A DNA stretch of 64,000 bases from Polytrichum commune (taxonomy: Eukaryota; Streptophyta; Polytrichopsida; Polytrichales; Polytrichaceae). Numbering within the stretch: the first letter of the stretch is position 1; each line of letters begins with the position of its first letter. Made by a program: the position numbers and the translations under genes. The notes under the pieces are model-generated. The model did not search any database. It was not told where the DNA came from and saw nothing but the letters and a program-made list of their open reading frames with translations. The stretch is from NCBI GenBank assembly GCA_950295325.1, contig OX485807.1, positions 20,991,666-21,055,665 on the forward strand, written 5' to 3'. Positions 18,501 to 50,167 of the stretch are shown piece by piece.

Positions 18501-21500
18501 TGGGGGTCAAACTCAGTTTTGGCATGCCAAAAAGGTCCTAAAACGAGCATGACTTCCAACAAACCAACAAGCCTCGACACATTCCAAGCATGCACCGTAA
18601 ACTTTACTGGACATGGAAAACTCCCGATCAAAATATCCGGTTGAATCAATGAATAACTCTATTGGTGATCAAGTTACTAAGTATGTATTGTATTATTTGC
18701 ATCCATGGGCACCCAAGCTGTGTTGCTGAACCCCAAATCTCTCAATAACAGTGACGTATTGAACTGATTTGCAAAGTACACTTGAAGGATGAAGGAATTC
18801 TAGATAGGTCGTCAAAGAAGGCTAATGAAAATTCCACCTGTCTTGGTCTGTTTCAGGTGGCTGCAAAGGCAATTGGGGCTATTCCAAGCCTCATCATATA
18901 CCCTATAATCCCATTCCTTGTGGTCAGCATCTTTCTAATCTACTGGACAGCAGGTTTACTCTACCTGTTTAGTGCAGGAAATATTACGCGCAACAATTGC
19001 AACAACAGCTGCAGCGCATACGATTTGACCCTCGAGCAGGTTACGGATGTCAGCTGTTGTGGTTATACTATGCACCACAGCAAAAATATAGTGTGGGCAA
19101 TTTTGTACCACATATTTGGAGTTTTCTGGACCACCCAGTTCATCAATGCTTGTTGTCTGACTACAATTGCGGGTGCGGTGGCGGCTTATTACTGGGCGAG
19201 GGGTGAATCTGCAGTAAGTTTCAAGCTTCATTGTTGGAAGTCAATTACCTACTCGTTTCAAGTGAATATGTGTGCACTGCTGGTGTATCTAGGAACCTGG
19301 TGAACACCTTAATAACTAGGAGTCTAAAGTAGATAGTGAATGTCTTCGTTATAGTAGATTTGCTATACCTCCATTCAGATGTGGTGAACCTAATATGTGT
19401 AAATGTAGTCAGTAGAAGTTGGAGAACATGAATAACAAACCGAATAACACCCACATCCCTTAGTTTATGTAAAATTGTTGTTGATGGGAGGAGTTTTTTA
19501 AATGGGATGGAAGGGGAGTTTTTCAGGAACTCGGGTGGCTCCCTGTTCTATCTTCTGCGAAAAGGGTGGTGCGGTATAGCTTGGGTTCAATGGCACTGGG
19601 CTCCTTGTTAGTGGCTATTATTGAAATGATACGGTTCCTCCTCGAACTCCTTCGCAAGAAGTTGAAGGCCCTGGAGATGGCACCCGGCGGATGTTGCATC
19701 ACAATTTGCTGTTGTTGTGCTCAATGTTGCTTAGGTTGCATTGAATGGACAGTCAAGTTCATCAATCGGAACGCATACATTGTGGTAAGGTTTTTCCCAC
19801 CACTTGCTCAACCCCTAAATGCCTACAAGGCCCAAAAGTGATTGATGGATGATTAAATGCACTCTTATTGTCCTAAAGGTTCGTTGGACTGCAAAGAATG
19901 TTTTCTTTTGATCACATGGAATTGGTCCCCATCTTGGTACGGTCAAGTATGTGATCACAAGAAATAACACCCCAAGAATGGCACATATTAGATTTATTCT
20001 TCTAATTCATAGATTGAGCGAAGAACTTTCTATATCGGTTTCATTGACATTCACTTGTTTCGGCATGCCAAGAGGTGCTGGAATGAGTTTGGCCCCCAAT
20101 GCATCGATATAGAGCGATCTTTGTTTAAAGCATGCACCCAAAAAACGCACTGAATATGGAAAGTTTTATATGAAAAACAACCAACTCCTGACCAAAACTC
20201 CGGTTGAATTCAAGGATAACTCTATCAGCCATTGTTGTGTATCCTACTAGACATACACAGATTTCGCTAAATTACCACACTTGGTTTAAACCATCTCATA
20301 GAATGAAAGCACGTGGAGGAAATTTGCACATGAAAACCCTATTGATGGAGTCTAAAAACATCTCCAACAACAACTTTGGAGAAGCATAAGACGCCTTTTG
20401 AAACCAAAAAGAACCATTGTATACTAGATCTTATGAAGGTGTGGAACCCTTTGGGCATTCAGGGATTACAAGCCATTTCCAAATCATTCTTCTGATATGG
20501 CCTGTGTTGTTCTCCGAGAAGCAGTACTGTTTCAAAAATTTGTGAGGATGAAAACTTTGGAGTTTTGTTAACCACCAATAGTCACTGAGGTTGATGAAAA
20601 CTTGTGGGTGTGCAGATTGCCATCAATGGGAAGGGTTTCTGCGGTGCAGCAGGAAAGGCGACTGGGTTGATTATCAACAACATTTTGAGAGTAGGGGCGG
20701 TGAACATCATTGGTGATCTGATACTCTTTTTAGGGAAAGTGTGTGTAAGTTTGGCGTGTGCACTTTTTGCCTTCTTGATGCTGGACACCCACAAATATAA
20801 GTCCGGCCACGACAAGGTCTCTTCACCTCTTTTCCCTGTGCTGGTGAGTGGCACTCTCTTCTCTAAACTTGGAATTATTATTCGGACTCTGCTATGGTCT
20901 ATGGCCACCTTTAGGGCGAGTTTCCATGTGGGCTGCTCGCCCACTAGATCCTAGATGGTAGTATGTTGGAGGTGTTCTCGTGTAGATAAGCGCAGCCGCC
21001 ACCCAACCACATTCTGGTGGCCTCCTAGAATGTGGAGGGCCGTGGACTCGGGCCACTAGGCTTTTCATGCATCCACTAAAGCACTTTTTGACCTACAAGT
21101 GCCCGTCACCAAAGGATTCGAAGACGGATGGTTTAGAATTCCATCCTTGGTAACCTGAAGGAGGAGGTTAGTAGGTGAGCCTAGATTTCAGAAGACGATA
21201 GTAGCTAGTTGGCACATGTGAACCCTACCCCACCAGATTCCATCTACATTTGGCGTGTTTGTCCTTATTCCCACTTGAATCTGGTGGGCTAGCGGCCTAC
21301 ATGGAAACTCACCCTTAGTCTACTATTATGTCTCTATGGTATCTTCAAAACCAAGATTGGTCTATGCTTCAGACCTAAATCATCAGATAGTGAAATATAA
21401 TTCTTTGCAGAAATTGAAACGTAATAATGGCCACTGTACACCGTGGGCTAGGGTCCGTGATCATGAAATTGTGAGGGCCCTAAAACTCATCCGAATCCCT

Positions 21501-33843: not shown

Positions 33844-35525
33844 ATGGCATCTCTTCGAGCGGGAGGTTGCTCTATTCCTTTCACTTTTCCCTTGGATGTA
33901 GATGGTTTTGTAGTGGTCCGCAAGAATTTGCTTAGTCTAAAGTTCAACTTTAGCCTTGGTACCATGTATGTGGAACAAGAATTATTCCAAGAGACTGGTG
34001 AGTTGTACAAGACAATTTTGATTCAAAACTCAAGAGTGGACAATGGTTTTTTGTCATTGGGCGCATGCTCGTACAAAGTGATAGGATTGTTTGAATTGGA
34101 GATGGATGCATCCATAGTGTTGTTGACAAATGAGTCCATCACAACCGCACCGCAAAACCATCCTTTTCGTAAGGTTAAAATGGAGGTAGAGTGGTGGACA
34201 TTAGATATAGGTGACGTAGGATGAACATGAGGTTTTGTGGAGGATGTGTGATGTTAAAAAATACTCAAATTCAGTGGTTTGTAAGGGGAGGGATCGTTGC
34301 TAGACAGAGCTTGTACAGAAGATGTCGAAGTAAAAATCCATGGAGATTGAAATGGATAAGATGAAGTCCCTGCAATGTCCACCACTTGGATGCTACGGTC
34401 AAGGCTGGATTTCCAGATGTTTCTGGGAAAGTGATGGATGGCATGGACAAAATTTACGACAGACATGTCTGGTGCAAAACCAAAACAACACACATTCAAA
34501 ATGAATTTGGTTTGACTTTTCGGAGGTCTTCATGCGTTGGTCATCTCCAATGCTCTAACGACTCATGTGAGTATCTTTCACGAAATGGTGGAGTTCGCAA
34601 CCCTACCAAATGGATCGGTATTACACCCACTCTTTTCATAGTTGGTGTAGACCCATCAAAGAAATCTAAGGTTCAATGCAAGGTTTGTCATGCCGCTCCC
34701 ATATGTCTTGATGCTTGCTATGCAAACATTATATATATCCATTTACAATCGTCAAACATGTCTCGTGCTTGTATCCACTTGGGTGTTCACAACCACCTTA
34801 TATGTATTGGAGTGTGCCGTGAGTCATTAGACATGGCTTACCAATGTGTTGCAAATGAGGTGTTTAAAATCCCAACTGCAAAGAATTGAGCCATTGTTAT
34901 GACTGCCAGTAAACAATTTTTGGCAAATCACATCCTCAAATTCCCTCTCTTAGGAGAAAAAAACCATCTTCATAGAGGATCCTTGGAGGTGGTAATAGAT
35001 AAATTCTCCATTTTGGCATCCCCTAATTGTAGGCACTTCGTGGCGGGTTTGAAGCGTTTCATTCATAGTGGGATGGGTTCCTTGGATAGCACCATGACAC
35101 TAAAAAAACCACTCTAGGCTCAAATATGTGCATGATAGTTGGTTTCCAGGGCCATCCAAAGATAAGGTCTTTATGTTTAAAATGTCGGTGGATCTTGTTG
35201 GAAATGGAGTCGATTTGGTGAAGTGTATGCAATGTGGAGGAGACATGGAAAATTTATGGATCATGTTTGACATTGTGAAGCATTTGCAAGGCCTGACTAC
35301 AATGGGATGTCACGTCTACGACAACAAACATTGCAAGATTTTTATAATGGCATGTTGTGATATCCAATCAGAGATGTTTGGGCCCAAACTATTTTCTAGG
35401 AAAATTTAAATGTTTACATGCTGGAGAATGATGTCTCCAATGTCAACTTTGAAGGATTCATAATGGACAACGCCCAAGCAAATTGAATTGTTGTGAGAAA
35501 GATTTACGGTGATGGTGACCCATCC
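33844..35525 (+). pseudogene. SWIM/MULE-like transposon-derived gene, 5' part (interrupted by the gypsy element)
   Basis: Begins MASLRAGGCSIPFTFPLDVD at 33844. After a frame break it continues at 34386 with MDGMDKIYDRHVWCKTKTTH and FRRSSCVGHLQCSNDSCEYL, a Cys/His cluster resembling FLYWCH/WRKY-GCM1-type fingers. It goes on through SPNCRHFVAGLKRF and, in a further frame, NVNFEGFIMDNAQAN and KIYGDGDPS, where the gypsy element begins. From memory this is a large repetitive family in mosses, lycophytes and charophytes with a MULE-like DDE core and a C-terminal SWIM finger. Several frameshifts and stops (for example after KIPTAKN at 34889 and a TGA in AQAN) show it is dead. The 3' half lies beyond the insertion at 44759-46345. 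Confidence 0.7.
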
Positions 35526-35957
35526 TGTCACGTGAGTTGACATCGGGGGCTAAGTCGCGTCAAATTAGGAGTAAATGGACTCCATCAGGAGTCCATGTGT
35601 GTTTGGATGAGTGATGGACTCCATTGGGAGTCCTAGTTAGTTGTTCATCCACTCCATAGATGAAATCCACATAGGCGGGAGGTTATGTGGAGAGGAAGGC
35701 ATCTTGACTTGCCATTGTTGTCAAGTCAAGTCTTGTGAGTGTGTTTTGAGAGAGAGAGAGCTTGTTGTTGCTATCTTATGGCTATGGTGTAGTAGATCAC
35801 GAGTAAAGCCTTTGCATTCTTTCTCCATTACTTGCACTCTTGGATTCTCCCTTTGTGGAGTGAGAGATAGCTTGACTCTTGTGTGTGAATTTCAAAGTTT
35901 CTTAAGCTTTGTAAGGAGACTTCTTAGTTTCTTGAGCTTGGAGAGAGAAACCCTCAT
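35526..35957 (+). repeat. 5' LTR, lacking the first ~110 bp of the full repeat
   Basis: Identical to 44213-44646 apart from (AG)6 versus (AG)7 near 35750. It contains a self-complementary GGACTCCATCAGGAGTCC-type hairpin (repeated as GGACTCCATTGGGAGTCC). The 108-bp block that precedes this core at the 3' end is absent here. Confidence 0.93.
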
Positions 35958-37018
35958 ACTTGACAACAATGGGCTTATTTTTCATTTGTGGTTGTATTTC
36001 TGAGCTAGAATGGTCCAGTAGTGGGAGCAAATGAGTGATACAAGTGTATGAAAGCTTAGTTTGCAATTCCTTGCAACCCTCAAGAAGATTTTGAGAAAAA
36101 TCTCCACATTTATCTTTTGGTGTCTCTTTGTGTTTTCTTGAATTGTTGATGGTTGAATCTTGAGACCAAATGGAATCTCAAGTCACATCTTTCTTGCTTG
36201 CAAATTGTGGAAGCAAAGTTTAATTTTTTTTTAAACAAATACAACAAAAACAATCCGATTTGTTTTTAATTTTTTTTGTTGAGCTCCGGACGGATCCAGA
36301 GCTCACCGGACCCTCCTGGAGCTCCTGCTCTGCAGGCCGGGCCGGGGGCGGGCGGGCGTCAGCCGGGTCCCACGGGCGGGTGGGCGGGCGCCAGCCAGGC
36401 CCTGGTAGGGGCCCAGGTAAGCCTTTTTTTTTCTTTTTGTTTTCCAACCTTACTTTTACCAAATTTGTTTTACAATTACTTTTCACTTTTTTTGCATTTT
36501 TTTTTAAATTTTTACATTTTTACTTTCACCTTTCAAACTTGGCATTTAATTCTCACAAACTTTGAGGTTCAAATTTGGGGGCATACTAGCTCCGATTGGA
36601 GTGAAATTTGAGCCAATCTTGTGTGAAATTTGCCAAGGAATCCAATGGTGTAATTGGATTGTTGATTGGAATTCAAAATCATTGCTGAAATTATTAATTT
36701 CAACGCTGATTTTTGTTTTTGGGAGCAAATTAACTCCGAACGGAGTGAAATTTGAGCCTAATTTGTGTGAAATCTTCCTAGGAGTCCATTGGTGCAATTA
36801 GTTTGCTGATTGGAGTCCATAATCACCTTGGAAATTAACATTTTCAACGCTGATTTTTTAATTTTAATTACCAATCTCAAACCTTTGCACAATTTTGGAA
36901 TTCTGGGGGCCTAAATAAACACTTGGCATTTGGCAAGGGATTGCCATTTAGATAGCCCGCAACAGGTGCAGGTTGCCATTACCTTGTAGATAGTTGCCGG
37001 TACTCAAGTGATTATTTT
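35958..37018 (+). other. Retrotransposon leader with GC-rich island and a 140-bp tandem repeat
   Basis: About 36282-36418 is strikingly GC-rich (GGGCCGGGGGCGGGCGGGCG) in AT-rich surroundings and ends at a donor-like CAGGTAAGCC (36414-36423). 36577-36718 and 36719-36858 are two diverged tandem copies (CTCCGA-GGAGTGAAATTTGAGCC, TTTCAACGCTGATTTTT). No ORF is expected; a structured 5' leader or spliced leader intron is possible. Confidence 0.8.
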
Positions 37019-38123
37019 ATGGTGCAAACTAGGAGCCGATATTATCGATCTCCATCACCAAATTACTTGGAGGACGTGCATACCACAAATTTTGAGCCAG
37101 AGGTAGATACCAATGAGGCTTTTGAGCCTATTTCGGCGTTGGACACTACTAGTAGGCTTCGGATTTGGAGTGTTGGCACGTTCGACGAAATGGAGGACGA
37201 TCACCACGGTTTTTCGGTGAGACCAGATGCAGCGCATTCAGGATTTCCGCCGAGAGAAGGATGACACTCCATGGACCATGTATACGCGACTCGCACGCTT
37301 TGCTGTTGAGTCGGGAGGTGTTTTTGCTGAGAGTTAGCTTGTCAAAATCTTTTTGTCTAAGATTGACAAGCGGCTACTTGAGTTGGCATCACCTCGGATT
37401 ATCCTCGACTACGAAGGCAAAGCTACGCTTGCACAAGCATTTGCCGTGGTTGAGAGATGTGATCGGGCTCTCTGTCAACACGATGCCACAGACATGGTAT
37501 CTTGGATGACAAAGAGTACGAAATCAAGAAGAATTGTCACAGCTACTAGTAGTTTAGCTGAGACTCAAACCGTTAAGGAGCAAAAGATTTTGTATTGTTG
37601 GGGTTGTGGAGAAGCTGGTCATTCGAAGAATGATCCCAATTGTCCTAAGAAGAAGAAAACCCAGCCTTTGGGAAAATTAAAACAAAAGATAGAACCAGTA
37701 AAGGCAGGGGACAATTCTAAGAAGAGACAATTGAAATGTAACCATTGTGGTGGCACTAATCACGATGTGGATCATTGTTTCCAACTTCATCCTCAGATGC
37801 GGCTTGCCAGTTATGTCACTGGCAAATCTCCAAGGGAGCAGAGTCTTGAGGCCAAGGTGGCAGAGCTTGAGAAAAATCTCAAATCTTCTGCATCTTTTGC
37901 TCAAATTTCTGAGCCGCATGCGGGTGGTGGCACCTCGGGTTCGGACATGTATATGTTTGGGGCATCTGGAGAGGTGGTGGCTGCGGCTTCTACTCGATCA
38001 CAAACATTGGCAAATGCGGTGGCTTCTACAAGTGGTGGAAGCAACGAGGTGTCACATCCTCGCCAGCTGGACCAGCGGATCAAGTTGGTCAAGCACGTTT
38101 ACCTCTCTCATTTCGATTGGTAG
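37019..38123 (+). pseudogene. Retrotransposon Gag with two CCHC zinc knuckles
   Basis: The N-terminal ORF starts MVQTRSRYYRSPSPNYLEDV at 37019. A frame change near 37200-37230 leads into IQDFRREKDDTPWTMYTRLA and, after an in-frame TAG at 37335-37337, SKIDKRLLELASPRIILDYE. The nucleocapsid has CWGCGEAGHSKNDPNC (CX2CX4HX6C, unusual last spacing) and CNHCGGTNHDVDHC (canonical CX2CX4HX4C), followed by a Lys-poor coiled segment (SLEAKVAELEKNLKS). The TAG stands where CAG (Gln) would be expected. Gag packages the element RNA; this copy would need readthrough or help in trans. Confidence 0.8.
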
Positions 38124-39320
38124 ACACCACTGTTGTTGGGGCTTAAAACCCTGTACCTTTGAGAGATGGGGATTCCATCTCGAAGGATGTTACGCAGGCC
38201 TTGGCATATAAAATTCTCCATATGCCAATTTTCTCGGGTTCGGAATTGATGGCTCTGGATTTCAAGCCTGCTGGAGTTTTCTATTTAGCTGGAAAAATAT
38301 TAGAAGGTAAGGCGGATTTGCCATCCCTTCAAGTATCCCAAGTTGTTGTTGACGTACCTGTGGCTGAGGAGGTGGAGGACTTAGCCAATTTGCGAGCGAG
38401 CCTTGCGGATGCGGCCATCATTGCTTTTGGTAAGCACACTGATATTCCTCCATCAACAATTTTAGCAGTGGACATGTCATTTTCGAATTACGCAGCGGGA
38501 GCGGCATATATATCTTGCAGATATTTATGCAAGGCCTGCTCGCGAGCGGCATAATTTGCAACTTGGAGTTGTACGGCTGATGAACGACAAATCTTTGTTT
38601 GTCGTTTCACGCGCGGATATTCCTACTATTCGTGCTACACCACTGAGAGTTATGATGGATTCCGGTGCTCAACCGGTTATGATTGGCAAAGGACTTGCTG
38701 ATAGTCTTGGATTGATGCCAGCAAACTTAGATCCTTGTCCATTTACAATTGTGACTTCAGTAGGGGGCACTGAACGTGCAACAGGTTACACCAAGGCACC
38801 TCTACGTTTGATTTTTAATGTGGGGGCAGGACCTACCTACACTCATTTGTTAATGAAGTGTGTTGTTACTAATGCTACCAACTATGATATACTTGTTGGT
38901 CAGCAAGTTCTTTATCCACTTGGCTTTGGTTTGGATAATTGGACTGAAGATGCATGGATTAGACCGGGATGGTCTTCTGGAGATGGCAGGAAGGTATTTA
39001 TTCCTGTAGCATTTGCAGCTACTTCTGTGACTATGGTTGCGGAGGCAATGTTTGGTTGTAGCGGTTCAGTTGCGGATTTGCCTTGTGCTCCAGTTTTGTT
39101 GGAGGAAACATTGAACTACGCTTGTAATGCAGCAGAACAACAAATCTTTCCATCTTTACAAATTCATGCTCGACATTTCAAGGATCCACCTCCACCATGG
39201 CGTACCCCTAAGGAGTTATCCGACCATTGTCGACACATTGTAGCGGATTTGGGGCTTGGAGAGACACTTCCAACGTCATCCTCAATTTCTTTTGCTCAAC
39301 CCATTCGTTGGCAACCACCA
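38124..39320 (+). pseudogene. Retropepsin-like aspartic protease and flanking linker
   Basis: An upstream segment (38159-38554, RDGDSISKDVTQALAYKILH) is open in the same frame as the later polyprotein, after a TAA at 38144-38146 where CAA is plausible. Near 38500 the reading changes frame into HIYLADIYARPARERHNLQL, then LRVMMDSGAQPVMIGKGLAD. DSGA at about 38658-38669 is the retropepsin active site. DILVGQQVLYPLGFGLDNW lies downstream of it. It would cleave the Gag-Pol polyprotein. A ~100-residue linker of unknown role follows (ARHFKDPPPPWRTPKELSDH) before the methyltransferase. Confidence 0.75.
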
Positions 39321-40633
39321 CCTGAAGGTATTATCCTTGTGGAAATCTTTGGGGGCATTGGCATAGGTTTGGCGGCAGTGTTGGAGGCTGGGATTACAGT
39401 TAGGCGATATATTCATGTGGATATTGATATGCAGCCAACAGAACCGTCCGACACCACATCCAACAATTGTTGTTGAGGTACCCCGCACAATTGTCAGCCT
39501 CTACCATTCTTGGATGTTGTGGTCAACTTCCTCAAGATGTCACTATGATTAGTGATGAGGATTTGAGAAGATTGGACCACGTGGATTTAATTATTGCAGG
39601 ATGGCCTTGTCAAGGCCATTCACGGGCAGGAACTGGCCAGGGTTTGGATGATCTTAGGTCTAGTTTATTCACGGATTTTATGCGATTGACACAATGGTGG
39701 TTTATCCACCAATCAACTCCGCCAGGGTACATTTTTGAAAATGTGCCATTATTGGGTGATACACGGTACAAAGTGGTGAAGGATGGTGAGTACTTTAACC
39801 AAATTCTGGGTACTCCAATATTTCTGGATGCTGCATCCTTGGGATCCTTTGCTCATCGGCCTCGTTGGTTTTGGACCAATTTGGTATCACCTCAAGTGCT
39901 TTCAGCGGCGATTGCCCGCATTCCCCGCCTTATGAATCGCAAGGTGGATGACATTTTAGATGATCATCGTGTTTCCTTGGCAGTTACCAAGGATGACACC
40001 TTGCCATTTGCATTAATTAACAAGGTGGGAATTCCGAGAGGTGTACTACCTACTTTTGTGACATATCCACGGTCTTTTGCATTTCGATCTCGTGGACCAA
40101 GCATGGTTTGGGATTCAAAATTCCAAACTCATGATGAGCCTACGGCAGATGAGCGGGAACGCGCCATGGGTTTTCCTACAGGCACTACGGCTGCTTATGG
40201 GCTTCAGGAAGGTCAGAGACGTTTCCTATTGGGATAAGCTATGGATCTCAATAGCATGGTGTGGATAATTGGAATTTGTCTTGCTGCTCAACAACATATG
40301 GATGACCAATTGCTTCCTCTGAGGGTAGAGAACAATAATCAGGGGGCAATGAAGCCGCAATCCAAGGATCACATGAAGGTCAATGACACCGAGGGATTAT
40401 TTTCTTTAAAACAACATGTTGCAGAAGAAATTCGAGCCCAACGTATTTTTTCGGCTTTGGCCCAAGATTTTGGCAAGTTGGAGGCCCATAAAATGTTTCC
40501 ACTTCTATTTCTTGGTGACACTTCATATGTGGGTAGCTATTTAGCTATACAAATTGATTGTAGTGGAGAGGATACGCATTTGAATTCAAGTGTAGATGAT
40601 GGGGGCAAAGGTGTTGCCCTCTACACGGACTAG
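39321..40633 (+). pseudogene. C5-cytosine DNA methyltransferase domain carried by the retrotransposon
   Basis: Motifs appear in family order. Motif I is VEIFGGIGIGLAAVLEAGI (about 39340) and II is YIHVDID. After a one-base frame change near 39440 comes motif IV, AGWPCQGHSRAGTG, with the catalytic Cys codon at 39608-39610. Motif VI is FENVP, VIII AHRPRWFWTNL, IX TADERERAMGFPTG and X RRFLLG-stop-AMDLNSMV. The stop (TAA 40235-40237) falls where CAA would give LLGQAMDL. The enzyme would transfer methyl from SAM to cytosine C5. The PCQ form of motif IV is that of classical bacterial and Dnmt1/CMT-type enzymes rather than DRM/Dnmt3. A ~130-residue linker to RT (QHMDDQLLPLRVENNNQGAM onward) has no known motif. 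Both lesions would inactivate this copy unless recoded. Confidence 0.92.
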
Positions 40634-42385
40634 CAATCACAGGCTGTGCTGGCACCAAGTGGCAATCCTTCTATGAAGAAGGAAACCACGGAGTTTAATG
40701 ATTGGCCAATTGAAGTGGGGCCAAAATTTACTGGTATTGAAGCACGAAAGGTACGGGCATTTATTCGCTCTTACCGTAATTGTTTTGCCTGTAGTCTTCA
40801 TGATCTTGAAGGATATAAAGGTAAACTTGTTCGTATTCAACTCGAGGACGACCATCCTATTTTTAGACGGCCGTACAGATTTAGTACATCTAAAAAATTG
40901 GGTGTTCAAACTCGATGTCAAGAATTATTGGCAGCGGAATTAATTGAACACTCCAATGGAGAGTATGCTTGTGCCACGGTTATGCCTTCAAAGAAATATA
41001 TCTCTGGCAACTGGACGGAAAAACGGATGTGTGGTGATTATAGTCCAGTCAACCGCAAGACCAAGTCGGATCGATATCCAATGCCGATGCCAGAGGAGTT
41101 GTTTGATGCACTAGGATTTGCTAGAATCTTCGGCACTCTGGATTTGAGGTCTGGTTATCATCAATTACCTTTGTTGTTAGGTGATCGGGTGAAGATTGCA
41201 TTTTGGAGAATTGATAAAGATGGCAAGGATCAACTTTATCATTGGAAATTTTTGCCATTTGGTCTCAAGAATGTACCAGCTGAATTTCAGCGGGTGATGG
41301 ATCAATTATTGGCTGGTTTACCGTTTGCTAGATGTTACATTGATGATGTTATCATCTTTAGTAATAGTCCACATGATCATGTGAGACATTTGCAAGCAGT
41401 ATTTGAACGACTACAACGGTGGGGACTCCGTTTACATCATGGCAAATGTAAGTTTTTCCATGATCAATTGCCCTATTTAGGCCACATGATTGTTCCTGGC
41501 GGTCTTGGTGTGCAACAGGCGAAGGTGGATGCTTTGCACAAAATTCCCGCACCTAGTGATGTACCACGACTTCGGGCATTTCTAGGATTGGCAAATTATT
41601 ATAGAAGTTTTGTCAAAAACTTTAGTTTGATTGCCAAACCTCTCACCATTCTCACGGGGAAAGACCAACCATGGATTTGGAGTCGGGAACAACAACAGGC
41701 ATTAGATACATTGAAGCAGAGGTTCGGTTCAGCGCCAGTGCTTCGGCGCCCGCATGTGTCTAGAGCTTTTCAATTGCACACGGATTGGAATGCAGTGGGA
41801 TTGGGAGCGGTACTGGCACAGAAAGATGAAGAGGGAAAGGAATATGTGGTGGCTTATGCATCTAGAAGCAATAATAATGTTGAATCTAATTATTCTTCTT
41901 ATGAAGGCGAGGCTTTGGCGGCCGTTTGGGCCATTGCACATTTTCAACCTTATTTGTATGGGCAAAAATTTACTTTGGTGACTGATCATCAACCTTTAAA
42001 ATGACTTATGGAATCAGATAAACTCATCGGGAAACTTGCTAGGTGGGCATTGTTACTTCAAGAATATGACTTTGAAGTTGTTCACCGAGCAGGAATTGCC
42101 AACTTGGATGCAGACGGATTGTCTCGCAATCCAAGTCCTTCAGATAAGGATTTAACTGGAGCCAGGTGGCATGGAGATTGTGATCGTGAGGCAGTGTCGG
42201 GTTGGCATGCTGCCACATATCTCACAATGATGTCGGGATTGGCTGCTGAGATCCTTATGGAAGAACAAGATGAGGAGGTTGATAAATCTCTCGTTGTTAG
42301 TGATGTGTGGGAAGACCAGGCGGTCTTCCACAAACTTCAACAAGGGATATTTCCTCTTGGACTATCTGCTATGGAGCGAGATTGA
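40634..42385 (+). pseudogene. Reverse transcriptase and RNase H (Ty3/gypsy)
   Basis: Open from 40646 to 42001 in the methyltransferase frame after a TAG at 40631-40633. RT motifs: YPMPMPEELFDALGFARIFG, TLDLRSGYHQLPL, FGLKNVPAEFQRVMDQLL and the catalytic YIDDVIIFSN (about 41336), then GKCKFFHDQLPYLGHMI. RNase H follows: FQLHTDWNAVGLGAVLAQKD, SSYEGEALAAVWA, TDHQPLK, and after a TGA at 42002-42004 (TGG or CGA expected) [20 protein letters not shown] and [15 protein letters not shown]. Another TGA at 42383-42385 precedes the integrase. The clear DxN-type/YIDD signatures and the RT-RH-IN order are those of gypsy elements. Confidence 0.93.
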
Positions 42386-43600
42386 ATTAGCCATCGAATA
42401 ACAAGGTTTCGTTGGGCAAACGGCTTGTTATTTCGTGTGTGGCCGAACGGAACGAGGCGCATCGTTCTAAGGCCAGATCAAAGAGCTTCTTTAATGCGGC
42501 AAGTGTACGAGGAGCTTGGACATTTTGGAGTGCGAAAGACACACTCTATGTTGCGTAACTAATATTGGTGGACTGGTATGTATCAACAGGTTGCCACTTA
42601 TGTTTCTAGGTGTGAAGTGTGTGACTGGGTCAGGTCAAGTTTTAATATTTTATCACCTCAATTTCAGCCTTTACCTATTATAGGCTTGGGATATCGTTGG
42701 TTTTTGGATTTTGCCGGACCGCTTACTATCACTCCACGTGGGGCAAAGTATGTACTTGTGATGGTGGAGCATTTTAGTAAGTGGATTGAACTCGTGGCTC
42801 TTCCCCAAAATTCCTCAGAATTGGCGGCTATGGCATTTCTTGATCGAGTTTTGGCACGGTTTGGAGCACCTGCAGAGGTGTTGACGGATCAAGGGAGAGA
42901 ATTTCTTGGATCTTTCGAGGCTTTGTGTACTAAGGCTTTGATTGATCATCGAACAACTTCCAGAGATCACCCTGAGGCAGATGGCTTAGCTGAACGAGTT
43001 GTTCAGACTGTCAAGCGCGGTTTGCAGAAGTATGGGTTGTTTCATGGCAACCATTGCGATTGGGACTTGATGTTACCATGGATAGCAATGGGTTACCGTT
43101 TCAGCAGGCAAGCATCTTTAGCATCCTATAGTTCTTACCAACTCTTGTATGGACTGGAACCAATTTTACCTAGCTTTGTGCGAGAGAAATTGGCTCATGT
43201 GGTAGACTTGGATGATCCAGATGTTTGGGCTCAATATCTTCATAACCAAGAAAAATTCTTTCAAAAGGCCATGCCTATGGCCATGGAGAACTTAAATATA
43301 GCTCAACATCGTGATACATTACGGTATGCCCGGATCCGCAGTGGAGCTTATCGACCTCATGTTCGTAGATTTTCCAAGGGGGATTATGTTTACTTGCAAC
43401 GGGAGGGGCCTACGACATTGGATATCAAGGCTGGGCGCATAATTTTGCGAGTAAAAGATGTTTTACCAAGTGGTATATTATTGCTTGAAGGCAAGGATGG
43501 ACGGAAATGTCGTGAGCATTCAAAGAATTGTGCTCCATGTCACCTTCCCATCGACGGCTCTGTGCATCCCGAGTTGGCGGTTGTACCACAGGGTCTGCCT
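42386..43600 (+). pseudogene. Retrotransposon integrase
   Basis: Same frame as RT. The zinc-binding region is GHFGVRKTH followed by YVSRCEVC (HHCC), interrupted by a TAA at 42560-42562 where CAA fits (LRN-Q-YWW). The catalytic core has FLDFAGPLTITPRGAKYVLV (first Asp), VLTDQGREFLG (second Asp) and HPEADGLAERVVQTVKRG with the Glu about 35 residues on, a DDE arrangement. The C-terminal part, RRFSKGDYVYLQREG and GRIILRVKDVLPSGILLLEG, resembles the GPY/F-type tail. It would insert the cDNA into the genome. Confidence 0.92.
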
Positions 43601-43777
43601 TGTTATGTGTGTGGAGAGAAGAAATGAGCTGCAATAATGTTATTGTGCGACCATTGTCAACATGGATGGCACATGGCATGTTTGACACCTCTCCTTTTGA
43701 CTCTTCTTTCTGGCAATTGGGTTTGTCCTCGTTGTCGGAAAGCCTCCCACTCCATGGCCGTTAATGGTCATGATTGA
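43601..43777 (+). pseudogene. PHD finger at the integrase C-terminus
   Basis: In the same frame, CYVCGEKK-stop-AAIMLLCDHC is followed by QHGWHMACLTP and, fourteen residues after the HMAC cysteine, CPRC. This is a full Cys4-His-Cys3 PHD finger: CX2C, 11 residues, CX2C, X4 H X2 C, 14 residues, CX2C, with the usual Trp before the His (GWH) and Trp two before CPRC (NWVCPRC). A TGA at 43625-43627 interrupts it where CGA (Arg) fits. PHD fingers bind histone H3 tails, reading K4 methylation state. Chromodomains are the usual targeting modules on gypsy integrases; a PHD finger in that place would be an alternative chromatin-reading tail. The frame ends at TGA 43775-43777. Confidence 0.88.
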
Positions 43778-44102
43778 GGACTTTGTGGATGTTTGCCACA
43801 TGTTTTAGTGGTGAAGTTGTTATCTAGTTGGTCGGGAGTTTTATGGGATTGAAAATCACATTGGGAGAGTTATTAAAGAATTCAACATAAATTGTTGCAG
43901 GCGATTAAGGATGGGGCTCACATTGCACCCAACCTACAGTTCTTGGGTTACTTCCTCAACCATGAATTTAATTCCTTAGATTACCACTACCCAATTGGAT
44001 ATGTACAGATGTAGCAACAACTTCATCATGTTCAACATCTCTACCGATGAGTGTGTTTGTTTCTAGCCGATTGGAAGGGCTCCTTATCTGCTAGGGGGGG
44101 CA
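43778..44102 (+). other. Retrotransposon 3' untranslated region with polypurine run
   Basis: Non-coding up to CTAGGGGGGG (G run 44094-44100), the likely polypurine tract for plus-strand priming. It is immediately followed by CACTTGAAGAGG, the start of the 3' LTR in the reading favoured here. Confidence 0.75.
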
Positions 44103-44754
44103 CTTGAAGAGGTGGTTGTTTAGCATATTAGTTTGCTATGTTTATTTTGCTAATTGATGTTGATGACAACACTCGATCTGTTGTGTTTAACGATCTTAGT
44201 TTACACGACAGCTGTCACGTGAGTTGACATCGGGGGCTAAGTCGCGTCAAATTAGGAGTAAATGGACTCCATCAGGAGTCCATGTGTGTTTGGATGAGTG
44301 ATGGACTCCATTGGGAGTCCTAGTTAGTTGTTCATCCACTCCATAGATGAAATCCACATAGGCGGGAGGTTATGTGGAGAGGAAGGCATCTTGACTTGCC
44401 ATTGTTGTCAAGTCAAGTCTTGTGAGTGTGTTTTGAGAGAGAGAGAGAGCTTGTTGTTGCTATCTTATGGCTATGGTGTAGTAGATCACGAGTAAAGCCT
44501 TTGCATTCTTTCTCCATTACTTGCACTCTTGGATTCTCCCTTTGTGGAGTGAGAGATAGCTTGACTCTTGTGTGTGAATTTCAAAGTTTCTTAAGCTTTG
44601 TAAGGAGACTTCTTAGTTTCTTGAGCTTGGAGAGAGAAACCCTCATCTTGAAGAGGTGGTTGTTTAGCATATTAGTTTGCTATGTTTATTTTGCTAATTG
44701 ATGTTGATGACAACACTCGATCTGTTGTGTTTAACGATCTTAGTTTACACGACA
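44103..44754 (+). repeat. 3' LTR plus a second copy of its first 108 bp
   Basis: Structure: block X (44103-44210), GC, core (44213-44646, matching the 5' LTR), then an identical second X (44647-44754). X starts CTTGAAGAGGTGGTTGTTTA and ends TTTACACGACA. X-GC-core placed directly after the polypurine run gives an LTR of about 540 bp with TG...CA ends (44106-44645). The second X then reads as the start of another LTR, as in a two-LTR junction (CCCTCAT joined to CTTGAAGAGG). Confidence 0.85.
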
Positions 44755-44758
44755 ATCC

Positions 44759-46345
44759 GTACATTTAAATGTTTACATGGTGGTTGTGATTAGGGGCAAC
44801 CACTAAGGAGAGCATGTACAGCTTATCAGAATGGTTGGATTTTGGCATTATCGATATAGACAATGGGGAGGTCACATGCTCATTGTAAGTTTCTTCCTTA
44901 ACACAAATGCCTTTCCTCTATTATTGATGAAATTGTTGTGTCATTTCATTTTTTTTAAACTAATAGCATCTCGAACATGTACTACAGGATCTGACTTTGG
45001 ATCAACGTGCTGAGATGCCAACTTGCAACCTACCAGAAATAATACATAACAAGTGACTGCAACATATGAGAACAAAATGACATGCTTGTATGAGGGAACT
45101 GTGGATGACATGATCCACACATTCATGCAAATTGCAAATTATCGTTCTTGGCTTAAAGGGGGTTCTTTAGGGAAAGGGCTAGATCAAGCATCATTGAAGC
45201 TTAAAGCTGCAACACACACCGGTGATCCCAAGCTCCTTGCAGAGGCAATGAGGTCATACCATGGGGTAGAGGATATTAATACAAGGAATTGTGCACTAGA
45301 GGGCTCTGAGTTGTTTGGATCAACCACGAGGAAACAATAATTACCGCCTAGATCTGAGTATGATTCTCATCGTCCCAGAAAAATGAACCACTGCATCCCT
45401 CACCCTAATACAAGGTCAACAAGGGCACGCATAGATGAGTCCTTAAAGTATGATGAGAGTGTCTCACACCACGAATGTGTTGGAGTTAGAGTGTCCTAAA
45501 TCCCAGTGGTATATTTCACGATTGCCTTATCCGTCCAAGAAAGAATGTCAGGCATTGTAGGTAAATACTAGACATCCATGTAGGGCTAAAGTTGGGAATA
45601 GTACACATGGCACACTTGCGCCGACTTACACATGCATGAAGGAATACCATTCCAACAACCACGTTCCTTCAAATTTTTGGTTTTGTGTAGATGACATTAA
45701 TTGATGCGTGAAGGGGAGCAAGAAAAAATGGGTGTTTGATTGGCCAAATCTCCCTAAGGTGTGCCTGGTGAAGGTTGGTAGAAACCTTACATAGGAGGAG
45801 TTGTTTGCATTGGAAGATGTTGGGTTTCAACTGCAACAGAACGAGGCACTGTCACCACGTCGTCGATCGAGAACAATGACAAACCTCCCCATCCCTTGCT
45901 CATATTTTTGTGTTTTTCCAAACCGAGATGCGCACCCAAACACACGCTTTTCCAAAGCAGTTCGACAGAACATGACAAAGCCATTATCAGAGCATAGGAA
46001 TAAATGGGAGAGCGCATTACAAATGGATGGGTATTATGTGGTTGGTGTGACTCCCATTCCATACCATGGATACGGATGCGTAATTACCATATTTTCCAAA
46101 GAGGAGAAGACATTCCTTGTCTCCATTGCAGATTTTCCGCAATGTACTTGTCGAATTTTGCGAAAATCTTGTCTTTGGCAGTGAGAAAGAGAAGTTAGTG
46201 GGTTTCATGCAAGCACTTGTATTATGTGTTCAGGTATTTGTGCAAGGTTGACTACACCACTAACAAGTTCATTCATGCACCGACATTTAGCTACAATGAG
46301 GTGATGCGTCTTCTTGAGCTTGCAGGTGTTGCAAAAAAAGCGTAG
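44759..46345 (+). pseudogene. SWIM/MULE-like transposon-derived gene, 3' part
   Basis: Continues the gene interrupted at 35525. MVGFWHYRYRQWGGHMLIVS (about 44831) is the conserved block after the DDE-like core, followed by YRSWLKGGSLGKGLDQASLK and SYHGVEDINTRNCALEGSEL (45053-45340). A broken stretch leads to 45801-46180: CVFPNRDAHPNTRFSKAVRQ, WESALQMDGYYVVGVTPIPY and FLVSIADFPQCTCRI. CTC is the first half of a SWIM finger; the C-x-H half and VDYTTDKFIHAPTFSYNEVM follow in other frames to about 46345. Roughly 60 residues expected between GDGDPS and this part appear to be missing, so the retrotransposon insertion may have removed target DNA. Frameshifts throughout show a pseudogene. Confidence 0.7.
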
Positions 46346-47185: not shown

Positions 47186-50167
47186 TTAAAGTAAAATTTG
47201 AAGTCGGGAATTGTTTGTGAAGTTTGGAAGTACTTTCAACGCCTCACAGTTCCTCATATCAAGCAATTCAAGCGACCCCAATGCTCCAATGGCATCCGGA
47301 AGCTCAAGGAGTGCCACACATGCACCAAGATAGAGGCGTTGAAGGGATCCCAATCCTCCGATGCTATTCGGAAGCTCTTCCAACACCCTACAATTGCTCA
47401 TATCGAGGTGTTGAAGGCACCTCAATCCTCCGATGCTTTCCGGAAGTTCTTTCAATGCATCACAAAATAACAAATTGAGGTGTTGAAGGGACCCCAATCC
47501 TCCGATGCTCTCTGGAAGTTTTTTCAACGTCATACACTCACACATATCGAGGTGTTGAAGGGACCCTAATCCTCCGATGCTCTCTGGAAGTTCTTCCAAT
47601 GACACACAACCACTCATATTAAGGTGTTGAAGGGACCCCAATCCTCCGATGCTCTCCGGAAGCTTTTCCAACAACACACAATCACTCATATTGAGGTGTT
47701 GAAGGGACCCCAATCCTCCAATAATCTTTGGAAGTTTTTCCAACGCTTGACAAAATCTCAGATCGAGATGTTGAAGGGATCCCAATCCTCCAATGCTCTC
47801 CGGAAGCTTTGCCAACACTTGACAAAAGCTCATATCGAGGTGTTGAAGGGATCTCAATCCTCCGATGTTCTCCGGAAGTTTTTCCAACACCACACAATCA
47901 CTGATATTGAGGTGTTGAAGGGACCCCAATCCTCCGATGCTATTTGGGAGCTCTTTCAATGCCACACAATACCTCATATCGAGGTGTTGAAGGGACCCCA
48001 ATCCTCCGATGCTCTCTGGAAGCTCTGTCAACGCCCCACAACCATTCATATCGAGGTGTTGAAGGGACTCCAATCTTCCGATGCTTTCCGAAAGCTTTTT
48101 CAACGCCCGACAAAATCTCAAATCGAGAGATTGAAGGGACCCCAATCCTCCGATGCTCTCCGGAAGCTCTTCCAATGCATCACAAAATATCAAAACAAGG
48201 TGTTGAAGGGACCCCAATTCTCCGATGCTCTCCGGAAGTTTTTTCAATGTTTGGCAATAGCTCATATCGAGGTGTTGAAGGGACCCCAATCCTCTTATGC
48301 TCTCTGGAAGCTCTTCCAACGCCCGACAATAGCTCATATCAAGGTGTTGAAGTAACCTTAGTGTCCCAATGGTGGTAGGTACATTTTTCAAATTTTCATT
48401 TGAACGTAGTTGCATGTATTTAATGTTGGCCATATTTTCAAAGAAACCCTCTTCTATGACACATTCTTGTTCGCTTGAGGGTAATAATGATGAGGGTGGA
48501 GATGTACCTATCATGCATATTTCCAATTGAGGAGCTATGAAGTTGCTAGGAAATCTATTGATATTTTGGCTACCTAATGACATCCTCTTCACCTCCAATG
48601 GTTTCCCTAACCAAGAAATTGGGAATTGCTTAGGATTTTTCATTATGGGCTTGAACAAGTTTTCGCGTACAACCTCGTCACCTTTTCTTGTCATGTGCAT
48701 TGCAAGATCACGTAAAATGTCATGCATTTTGACACACTCCCCACGACCATAATCAACGCAATCATCAACTAATGATCGCTTCCTAAGCTCATTCAAAATA
48801 CAACGCGCTTTATCCAAAGCATCCTCCGCATCAAGGTCGTCGCCAAATAAATCTTCAATAGCCCACATGTAAAATAAGTCCTTTGTTCGTATTTCCAAAT
48901 CTTCGGGATAGGCTGCAAAATATAAGAAACATGTTTTTGTGGATTCTTCCAATTGGTCATAGCTGATTCGGAGGCGATTGAAAAGTTGTTGTTCAACGTT
49001 TTTGTCAACCGTTGCATTGGACTTCCGTAGATCTTGCAATGTTGATCTCCATTCCACACAATCATCCTTACTCTTCATTGCCGCCCCAATGACTTTCAAA
49101 GCCAACGGCAAGCCTTTGCATTCATTGCACACATCTCTAGCCAATTTCATCAATTCTTGGTTTGATGGAAGCCCATTGGTACCAAATGCATGTATACAAA
49201 ACAATACCCAACTGTGCTCCTCTGAAAGTAATGAAAGAACCTCCACACTTGCATTAATGCGACGCGCGATCGACAAATTTCTTGTAGTGAGCAATGTCAC
49301 ACTCCCAAATCCTTTTGCAATGTTCAACCATTCTACCATCTCTCTATATTCGTGCACATTATCCCACACGTCATCCAATATTAACAAAACTCTCCGCCTT
49401 GAAAACACATTCATCAAATGTGTACGTTGGTCTTCAAGAGGTGTTTCGCATTTCATCTCAACATGTAGATACTCCCTCATTCGTACGTAAAGGGAGGAAA
49501 TAGATGCATCACGTCCAACCGTGACCCAAAAGATGAAGTCTTTCCCAAAAAATTCTTGGATTTCTTCATTGTTGTTCACCATTTGTGCCAGCAAGGTTTT
49601 CCCACATCCACCCATGCCTTGGATGCCAATGCATCTACCACTTTCACTCACACTTTGCCTTTCCATGATTTTTGATTTCACTCTTTTGAAGAGATCCCCC
49701 ATTCCAAGAATCTCTTGAGGAACCTCTTGGATCATCACGCAAGTGCCCACATCAGACTTGCTAATACTCTCATGCGTCAAAAGTGCCATGGGTGATATAT
49801 TCACATTTTCCTTGATTTCTTCTTTTAGCTTCAATATTCGAAGCCCATATCTCACCTCACGGATCCGCTCCCAATTAGAGCCATCCCTACAAATTTCCAA
49901 AATCTCGTTGGCATCTTCAACACATTTTTGAAACGCACCCAACCAATTTTCCAATGCTTCCTCTGATTGACATTGATTGGATATCTTTAACAACATGGGT
50001 TTGATCTTCTCCAAATATTCTCCCAAAGATATGCATTGCTCTTGGCAATGGCAAACAAACTTCAATCCTTCAATCACCTTCCCAAACAAGGTCCAAACGC
50101 CTCCAAAAGCAACACCAAATGCAGCACCTAGAGTTGCGTTCACAACATCTGGCCCCGAGTTTGCCAT
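47186..50167 (-). CDS. NB-ARC-LRR disease-resistance-type protein with RPW8-like N-terminus, single exon
   Basis: One uninterrupted ORF of 993 residues. Residues 1-130 form a helical, RPW8/CC-R-like region whose start is hydrophobic and Gly-rich (NATLGAAFGVAFGGVWTLFG), then KPMLLKISNQCQSEEALENW. NB-ARC: Walker A GMGGCGKT (184-191), kinase-2 LLILDDVW (261-268), RNBS-B TLLTTRN (291-297), GLPLAL (352-357), RNBS-D CFLYFAAYPED (413-423) and MHD (481-483). From residue 596, sixteen consecutive 24-residue LRRs (consensus LPESIGGLGSLQHLDMS-C--L) run to a short C-cap. All switch motifs are intact, so it is probably functional. Such proteins sense pathogens in the cytosol and, if helper-like, form membrane pores on activation; which role applies here is inference. 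No introns and no neighbouring NLR in the window. Confidence 0.97.
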   Translation of the reverse strand: MANSGPDVVNATLGAAFGVAFGGVWTLFGKVIEGLKFVCHCQEQCISLGEYLEKIKPMLLKISNQCQSEEALENWLGAFQKCVEDANEILEICRDGSNWERIREVRYGLRILKLKEEIKENVNISPMALLTHESISKSDVGTCVMIQEVPQEILGMGDLFKRVKSKIMERQSVSESGRCIGIQGMGGCGKTLLAQMVNNNEEIQEFFGKDFIFWVTVGRDASISSLYVRMREYLHVEMKCETPLEDQRTHLMNVFSRRRVLLILDDVWDNVHEYREMVEWLNIAKGFGSVTLLTTRNLSIARRINASVEVLSLLSEEHSWVLFCIHAFGTNGLPSNQELMKLARDVCNECKGLPLALKVIGAAMKSKDDCVEWRSTLQDLRKSNATVDKNVEQQLFNRLRISYDQLEESTKTCFLYFAAYPEDLEIRTKDLFYMWAIEDLFGDDLDAEDALDKARCILNELRKRSLVDDCVDYGRGECVKMHDILRDLAMHMTRKGDEVVRENLFKPIMKNPKQFPISWLGKPLEVKRMSLGSQNINRFPSNFIAPQLEICMIGTSPPSSLLPSSEQECVIEEGFFENMANIKYMQLRSNENLKNVPTTIGTLRLLQHLDMSYCRALEELPESIRGLGSLQHLDMSYCQTLKKLPESIGELGSLQHLVLIFCDALEELPESIGGLGSLQSLDLRFCRALKKLSESIGRLESLQHLDMNGCGALTELPESIGGLGSLQHLDMRYCVALKELPNSIGGLGSLQHLNISDCVVLEKLPENIGGLRSLQHLDMSFCQVLAKLPESIGGLGSLQHLDLRFCQALEKLPKIIGGLGSLQHLNMSDCVLLEKLPESIGGLGSLQHLNMSGCVSLEELPESIGGLGSLQHLDMCECMTLKKLPESIGGLGSLQHLNLLFCDALKELPESIGGLRCLQHLDMSNCRVLEELPNSIGGLGSLQRLYLGACVALLELPDAIGALGSLELLDMRNCEALKVLPNFTNNSRLQILL

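Follow-up and report, generated by a model that had tools for sequence, protein, structure and literature searches.

The window, by which we mean the whole 64,000-nucleotide stretch of Polytrichum commune DNA analysed here, carries at 35526-44754 a Ty3/gypsy-type element that codes for gag, protease, a Dnmt3-type C5 methyltransferase (MTase), reverse transcriptase (RT), RNase H (RH), a DDE integrase (IN) and a C4HC3 PHD finger. It is a decayed member of a Ty3/gypsy-type retrotransposon family that is abundant in this land plant. Its features are as follows, L001 being a contig from elsewhere that holds a foreign relative:

35522..35525, no strand: left target-site duplication ATCC, equal to 44755-44758
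35526..35957, +: terminal repeat A1, beginning TGTCACG, 99.3% identical to A2 over 441 bases
37019..37264, +: start of gag, MVQTRSRYYRSPSP, truncated here, resembling the N-terminal end of the gag in L001, MVNTRSRYYRSPSP
37596..37778, +: pair of gag zinc knuckles (CCHC), read from the translation and present in L001 too
38628..38912, +: aspartic protease (DSGAQ), a weak PF13975 match (E 2e-4) below its cut-off
39321..40260, +: Dnmt3-type C5 methyltransferase, motif I in the frame of ORF 38466-39476, motifs IV-X in the 39428-40237 frame
40235..40237, +: in-frame stop within the MTase, due to decay
40631..40639, +: TAG-CAA-TCA, presumptive leaky stop at the MTase/RT boundary, conserved across copies
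40634..42382, +: RT and RNase H (PF00078, E 5e-27; PF17919, E 3e-32), with one stop at 42002 and another at 42383
42490..43600, +: DDE integrase with zinc-binding N-terminus (PF17921, E 3e-4, below cut-off; PF00665, E 7e-14), CAPCH motif and a stop at 42560
43601..43735, +: C4HC3 PHD finger with a stop at 43625 inside (PF00628, E 3e-8 on 43628-43774; intact in L001, E 4e-10)
43775..43777, +: stop codon closing the RT-RH-IN-PHD frame
44093..44100, +: polypurine tract AGGGGGGG, the same in L001, the run slightly different in copies a, b and d
44103..44210, +: terminal repeat B1, 100% identical to B2
44207..44216, no strand: palindrome GACAGCTGTC at the B1/A2 junction, found in L001 too
44213..44646, +: terminal repeat A2, pairing with A1
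44647..44754, +: terminal repeat B2, ending ACGACA, pairing with B1
44755..44758, no strand: right target-site duplication ATCC, equal to the left copy

Pfam places the C5 MTase (PF00145, E 2e-12), RVT_1, RNase H, rve and PHD in that order, the PHD being scored on the part downstream of its inner stop. A first-pass annotation of this DNA had put MTase, RT, integrase and PHD finger in one element, with a single frame spanning 39467 to 43777. The domains and their order hold up, but the frame is a register only, with six inner stops (40235, 40631, 42002, 42383, 42560 and 43625) ahead of the terminal stop at 43775. Likewise, the C5 MTase does lie between protease and RT, but its motif I, at about 39336-39375, is in a different frame from motifs IV-X (in the usual numbering of C5-MTase motifs), and the full Cys4-His-Cys3 pattern read behind the integrase is there but for the stop inside it. 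The stops at 40235, 42002, 42383 and 42560 occur in 1, 1, 0 and 2 of the 43 fetched copies, respectively, and that at 43625 in 4 of 38; these five, each in at most 4 other copies, are decay of the window copy, from which the element proteins cannot be made. Decay as an account of all six was ruled out for 40631 only, which is family-wide. An Rfam scan of the window gave no match. Pfam matched neither a tyrosine recombinase nor a chromodomain (the latter looked for in the window pieces at E<=1 and in the L001 ORFs at <=0.01), and the PHD finger is present in place of a chromodomain.

In 408 Mb of genome the MTase is found at no fewer than 123 places, several of which have long open frames (123 were scored of 353 candidates, and the PHD list holds the best 150 of 514 candidates). 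We fetched 43 of the 123, namely the 40 that scored highest and the 3 that scored lowest, the window copy being among the other 80; L034-L036 duplicate parts of L037-L039 and are left out of the counts. All six tested parts, in the order MTase-RT-RH-IN-PHD, are present in 36 of these 43 copies. At no fewer than 61 of the 123 places a listed PHD follows on the MTase strand, 2.5-10 kb downstream, with none upstream at that distance among the matches listed, and the spacing is fixed, 51 of the 61 pairs falling at 4,012-4,080 bases. For ten full-length PHD ORFs with no listed MTase, one was found upstream in nine; the stretch fetched for L100, a full-length PHD ORF, has none. Since the layout is genome-wide and also occurs in L001, an artefact or misjoined genes can be ruled out, and the MTase-PHD combination claimed from the window copy thus recurs, both in this genome and outside it; the outcome that would have refuted that claim, the want of any second copy bearing both domains, did not occur. 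Repeat identities of 99.3-100% in five complete copies show that the family includes young members.

Two diverged subfamilies occur in the genome. Between them dN/dS is 0.11 for the MTase, 0.095 for the PHD, 0.031 for RT and 0.027 for the integrase, with dS near saturation, and both MTase and PHD are under purifying selection. Within subfamilies the values are much higher (MTase 0.40 and 0.22, PHD 0.58 and 0.29), as expected because copies drift. For each domain, copies that had a stop inside it or covered less than 85% of it were set aside, leaving 24-29 of the 43; pairs whose dS was zero or saturated were dropped too.

The claim that MTase and PHD share one Pol frame has to be abandoned for this family, as a conserved TAG splits Gag-PR-MTase from RT-RH-IN-PHD. 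A stop stands at the position of 40631 in all 43 fetched copies. Of the 52 copies inspected besides that of the window, 51 have TAG there and 50 have TAG-CAR-YYA, which is also found in the window and L001 and spans both subfamilies. CAR-YYA is retained while the flanking bases vary, although TCA/TTA alters the amino acid. The family context fits the type I readthrough signal as defined in plant viruses, UAG then CARYYA (PMC5382211), and ORF2 continues in frame after the TAG. Judged by this context, the TAG is probably a leaky stop with the MTase on its Gag side and RT-RH-IN-PHD behind it. UAG-CAR-YYA would halt most ribosomes and give an excess of Gag-PR-MTase, a minority reading through to Gag-PR-MTase-RT-RH-IN-PHD, so that the MTase would be a Gag-level component of the particle. 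Reinitiation or an internal promoter could instead produce the RT-RH-IN-PHD ORF, with the TAG as the plain end of ORF1, and Tca2 offers a precedent, where the context of the in-frame stop was not enough to give readthrough in yeast and an internal promoter was identified (PMC2194720). In the same direction point the want of a clear stimulatory RNA structure after the TAG (rank 4 of 93 folding windows by energy, 69 of 93 equal or better on covariation, with 11 rows folded and 32 aligned; single-sequence z of -1.07 for the window and -4.42 for L001) and a Met 14 codons past the stop, which the window has in common with 21 of the 25 copies in its subfamily; this makes reinitiation possible there and slightly raises the odds of this route. 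However, in L001, as in 10 of 18 copies from the second subfamily, ORF2 has its first Met at residue 117, already within RT, and with the exact in-frame continuation and the CAR-YYA kept between differing flanks we regard this route as rather unlikely. The terminal repeats raise a similar choice. The split arrangement A-coding-B-A-B, seen in the window and four of six other copies, is also that of DIRS/PAT tyrosine-recombinase retrotransposons. DIRS elements have a tyrosine recombinase and make no target duplication, whereas this family has a DDE integrase, no tyrosine recombinase and 4-bp target duplications in all five complete copies, from two subfamilies, so that such repeats are less tightly linked to tyrosine recombinases. 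Because joining the two ends of the element gives the sequence of its internal B1-A2 junction, the element DNA probably goes through a circular form, and the DDE integrase would act on the palindromic junction. The same pattern could also arise incidentally, through two-LTR circles or by tandem recombination, from an ordinary LTR element with B-A as its LTR, and the polypurine tract upstream of B1 and the L001 assembly, a circle with a single B-A, would suit this; that the pattern recurs with its 4-bp duplications in all the complete copies, and that DIRS-like repeats are reported for KnitGypsy-Dnmt3 of Klebsormidium nitens (PMC5890265), makes this origin doubtful.

The integrase and MTase lend themselves to two readings each as well. 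In the L001 integrase model, the core resembles that of foamy-virus integrase; the fold comparison covered residues 1-359 of 437 well and barely tested the PHD part. PHD fingers share a general C4HC3 spacing, and here each of the eight zinc ligands is invariant or almost invariant. By sequence, the closest PHDs include those of CHD4, PHF12, UHRF1, KDM5 and ATXR5, several of which read unmodified H3 with a preference for H3K4me0, and the best PDB matches are chromatin PHDs. The finger is thus likely a histone reader, predicted to bind H3. From its place behind the integrase C-terminal domain it may dock the pre-integration complex on nucleosomes, most likely via the unmodified H3 tail, and copies would then land in chromatin that tolerates a methylated newcomer. 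It might alternatively serve the integrase tail as a structural zinc-binding module, for assembly or DNA contact: the CAPCH motif just before it (C356 and C359 nearly invariant, H360 invariant; alignment A3) suggests a larger zinc-bound tail, and the scant coverage of the PHD in the fold comparison leaves room for this; the conserved ligands, the chromatin matches and a PTM/DIR17-like Tudor domain behind the PHD of a distant member, P0227, nevertheless render it improbable. The MTase is nearest DNMT3 by sequence and fold, with motif order unrearranged; DNMT3 being the best profile and fold match, a bacterial-type enzyme was ruled out. A single-sequence scan of viral contigs gave no relative; 28 viral-contig loci (alignment A1, 28-53% identity over short stretches) look like phage MTases and were set aside, as were four Streptomyces loci. 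The family enzyme is presumably catalytic. De novo CG methylation is reported for retrotransposon DNMTs, and the SymbioLINE DNMT gave no DNA methylation in yeast (PMC5890265). Among 25 copies, C/T differences per site, taken as a possible methylation footprint, are 0.065 for CG, 0.072 for CHG and 0.045 for CHH, too slight a contrast to tell either way. The MTase would methylate the DNA of the element itself, either once the second strand has been made or when the element inserts. That it chiefly targets host or rival-element DNA, with the element gaining by remodelling the host methylome instead of marking its own cDNA, seems less likely still than the alternatives above: a higher dose could come from the many MTase places, several of which have long open frames, and a methylome effect has been suggested in dinoflagellates, but the Klebsormidium methylome stays plant-like despite such elements, with fewer copies there, as the authors note (PMC5890265), and a particle-borne enzyme at Gag level would presumably meet the element's own cDNA first.

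The best explanation of the whole, to which we give a probability of about 0.5, is a decayed copy of a family with a leaky UAG, self-methylation, PHD docking and passage through a circle. We think it unlikely that the family goes so far as to form a DDE-integrase lineage with DIRS-like circles and a Gag-level MTase made via the leaky UAG, delivering itself methylated and steered by its PHD to chromatin with unmodified H3K4. Elements carrying the host's silencing mark are a paradox, and because this family is abundant, includes young copies and keeps a writer and a likely reader, a gain from self-methylation becomes testable in a land plant; if the reading is true, writer and reader are united in one mobile element. 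The conserved stop, for its part, predicts protein stoichiometry.

A known algal element type is here extended to land plants, with new parts added. KnitGypsy-Dnmt3 is described with the same Gypsy domain set, a Dnmt3-type MTase in the polyprotein, a DIRS-like repeat arrangement and purifying selection on the MTase; its MTase lies inside the Pol ORF (PMC5890265), whereas in the moss family the conserved TAG parts MTase from RT. The main text of that paper has no occurrence of PHD, and neither a leaky stop nor a land-plant element was seen there; in the literature searched, we found no description of a PHD, a leaky stop or land-plant hosts in DNMT-bearing Gypsy elements. No K. nitens-labelled MTase is among the family MTase matches listed, most of which carry no organism label. 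DNA-methylase-coding transposons have been stated to be absent from land plants (PMC6338049), against which Mp_4g09160 of the liverwort Marchantia speaks, a Gypsy-like protein of CCHC gag and an MTase 49% identical to that of L001; Mp_7g09570 combines an MTase remnant, integrase and PHD, both proteins being known from database annotation only. By annotation only, too, P0214, P0089 and P0096 of a second liverwort, Calypogeia fissa, have an MTase and/or PHD-tailed integrase homologous to the family (P0214 MTase 51% to L001), and the charophyte Closterium P0235 an MTase 40% identical to L001 over 31% of the query. In P0227, P0228, P0230, P0231, P0233 and P0234 a single protein carries an MTase (35-42% identical to that of L001) together with an integrase and a PHD; in contrast to the window family they have a single ORF, and in 4 of the 6, where both flanks are seen, the MTase sits between RNase H and integrase. 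The MTase of P0233 goes unreported by Pfam at E<=0.01. Chromoviruses carry a chromodomain behind the integrase, where this family has its PHD. Ginger1 transposons have a PHD on a Gypsy-type integrase in one family; they are DNA transposons, and no MTase was seen in that account (PMC2836005). CR1 PHD is, going by the title of its report, a PHD on a retroelement protein, here of a non-LTR element, with no MTase seen in that title. In K. nitens, integrase and PHD occur together in two proteins, P0080 and P0119.

The methyltransferase and PHD finger assigned to one Pol by the first-pass annotation fall within a Ty3/gypsy-type retrotransposon spanning positions 35526-44754 of the window, where Pfam matches begin with a weak protease and continue with DNA_methylase, RVT_1, RNase H, integrase and finally PHD, in agreement with the annotated placing of the methyltransferase between protease and reverse transcriptase (RT) and of the PHD finger behind the integrase. 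Searching the genome (407.8 Mb, 64 contigs; best candidates scored) yielded at least 123 places with a methyltransferase and at least 150 with a PHD finger. Among the matches listed, 61 of 123 methyltransferase places are followed on their own strand by a PHD finger 2.5-10 kb further downstream, in 51 of those 61 at a distance of 4,012-4,080 bases; no PHD finger lies 2.5-10 kb upstream, and an opposite-strand PHD finger occurs within 10 kb at a single place. We fetched 43 copies from the at least 123 places (the 40 best and 3 weakest scores), and 36 carry both domains, with methyltransferase, tail, RT, RNase H, integrase and PHD present in order; in the other seven, the PHD finger is undetectable within 4.85 kb. 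Ten full-length PHD ORFs had no listed methyltransferase; nine have one upstream, and at the tenth (locus L100) none was found upstream in the stretch fetched.

The methyltransferase alignment, run against genome contigs of bacteria and archaea, recovered a related element, L001. This 9,285-base contig, whose ends overlap by 127 bases, belongs to a cyanobacterial metagenome bin, where it is presumably plant contamination. In L001, ORF1 (at least 1,162 codons) encodes gag, zinc knuckles, protease and methyltransferase and is followed by a TAG; past this, ORF2 (1,047 codons, in frame with ORF1) encodes RT, RNase H, H2C2-integrase and PHD. A CAPCH motif before the PHD finger (L001:6387-6401) is nearly invariant (C356, A357, P358, C359; H360 invariant in A3), possibly a further zinc site. 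P0001 and L001, which are related to this plant element, carry bacterial bin labels (Obscuribacterales, Synechococcales MAG81), which probably reflects contamination of public metagenome-assembled genomes.

The Polytrichum copies form two diverged subfamilies, the window's own and a second. Median dN/dS between them is 0.11 for the methyltransferase (96 of 162 pairs measurable), 0.031 for RT (115/133), 0.055 for RNase H (135/152), 0.027 for the integrase (91/128) and 0.095 for PHD (153/154), all rough values because dS is near saturation. Against L001, the methyltransferase gives 0.11 (7/27) and PHD 0.05 (5/29). Within subfamilies the ratios are higher (methyltransferase 0.40 and 0.22; PHD 0.58 and 0.29), as for copies drifting once inserted.

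The terminal repeats of the window copy are split into parts A and B.

Split terminal repeats of the window copy
35526-35957, repeat A1
44103-44210, repeat B1
44213-44646, repeat A2
44647-44754, repeat B2

The resulting order is A-coding-B-A-B. Among six further copies with fetched ends, four share it; the left A of one and the right A-B of another did not turn up within the fetched stretch. The internal B1-A2 junction, GACAGCTGTC, consists of both element ends joined, plus two extra bases. The window copy (ATCC) and the four copies sharing its order (GAAG, TTAT, GAAG, GATG) are each flanked by a perfect 4-bp duplication. KnitGypsy-Dnmt3, a methyltransferase-bearing Gypsy element of Klebsormidium nitens, likewise has A-coding-B-A-B repeats, a layout described as the "same as that of a DIRS" (PMC5890265); the available part of that paper makes no statement on its target duplications.

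The window copy itself is broken. The single frame reported for 39467-43777 does correspond to one register (39428-43777), but this is interrupted by stops at 40235, 40631, 42002, 42383, 42560 and 43625, methyltransferase motif I lies upstream in a different frame, and gag is also interrupted relative to that of L001. Five of the stops recur in no more than 4 of the 43 copies, despite 99.3% identity between A1 and A2. The nearest of the 43 is only 95.0% identical, and the window copy may already have been defective at insertion, mobilised by proteins of other copies. It seems to have inserted into another repeat; by eye, the flanks (34900-35525 and 44760-46300) look like remnants of an earlier coding element, now broken.

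The stop at 40631, between methyltransferase and RT, is TAG in all 43 fetched copies, and in 11 no other in-frame stop occurs between the beginning of the stretch and the PHD. CAR-YYA follows directly in 42 (24 CAATCA, 12 CAATTA, 5 CAGTTA, 1 CAACCA), the remaining copy having CACTTA; TCA versus TTA at the second codon alters the amino acid and keeps the nucleotide rule. With nine further copies, TAG stands at 51/52 and TAG-CAR-YYA at 50/52, locus L099 having TAA-CAATCA instead. The L001 junction is TAG-CAA-TCA, and among 76 protein relatives found through the methyltransferase, 21 stop at the homologous place, the rest being fragments or different there. Tobamoviruses, among others, are described as having UAG-CARYYA as their type I readthrough signal (PMC5382211), and we infer that the UAG is read through.

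Reinitiation behind the TAG, rather than plain readthrough, is possible in the window's subfamily, since a Met stands 14 codons past the stop in 21 of 25 copies and in the window copy. For Tca2, a retrotransposon with an in-frame stop, the surrounding sequence is described as insufficient for readthrough (PMC2194720, in part). In the second subfamily, however, the first Met is residue 117, within RT, in 10 of 18 copies and likewise in L001; seven of the 18 reach a stop before any Met, and one has a Met at 8. As to readthrough, the RNA downstream of the TAG holds a candidate long stem, but this ranks only 4 of 93 windows by energy and 11 of 93 by energy ratio, with 69 of 93 windows equal or better on the covariation term.

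Integrase searches gave 423 relatives (120 listed), and a set of 39 long methyltransferase relatives was also found; 48 of 159 proteins (P0077-P0235) match the strict C4HC3 pattern. Named relatives include Marchantia polymorpha, in which Mp_7g09570 combines a methyltransferase remnant with integrase and PHD, Calypogeia fissa, Riccia sorocarpa, Klebsormidium nitens and Closterium. Six relative proteins carry methyltransferase, integrase and PHD in a single ORF, and in the four with both flanks visible the methyltransferase lies between RNase H and integrase. The methyltransferase-PHD partnership thus seems to be old, and the methyltransferase has presumably either changed its position or entered such elements on several occasions. 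One single-ORF relative, P0227, has a PTM/DIR17-like Tudor domain (PF21743, 6e-8) behind its PHD finger, so some members may have two chromatin-reading modules.

Around the observed architecture, conserved stop, between-subfamily selection, ends and target duplications, a cycle can be proposed in which ribosomes would read through the UAG between methyltransferase and RT, the methyltransferase would be packaged at Gag level and, by analogy with retrotransposon DNMTs, might methylate the element's own DNA, PHD would guide integration, and a circular intermediate would be cut at its joined ends. Retrotransposon DNMTs are described as methylating CG de novo, the SymbioLINE enzyme giving no DNA methylation in yeast (PMC5890265, in part). 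A DNMT-bearing Gypsy element with DIRS-like repeats was already known from one charophyte; as far as full-text searches of open papers show, the integrase PHD beside a methyltransferase, the conserved UAG-CARYYA between methyltransferase and RT, land-plant hosts, 4-bp duplications and the second architecture are new.

Three further features lie in the window, the choline-transporter ORF being probably a piece of a host gene. The RPW8/NB-ARC/LRR gene, taken together with the liverwort relatives of the element, points to a land-plant host, probably a bryophyte.

Neighbouring features
47186-50167, minus strand, 993-codon ORF of a plant immune receptor, matching RPW8-like, NB-ARC, winged-helix and LRR domains
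47333-48352, within the LRR part of that ORF, 72-base tandem array of 14 units (80% match)
18782-19303, plus strand, 173-codon ORF with a plasma-membrane choline transporter match (PF04515, 1.5e-25)
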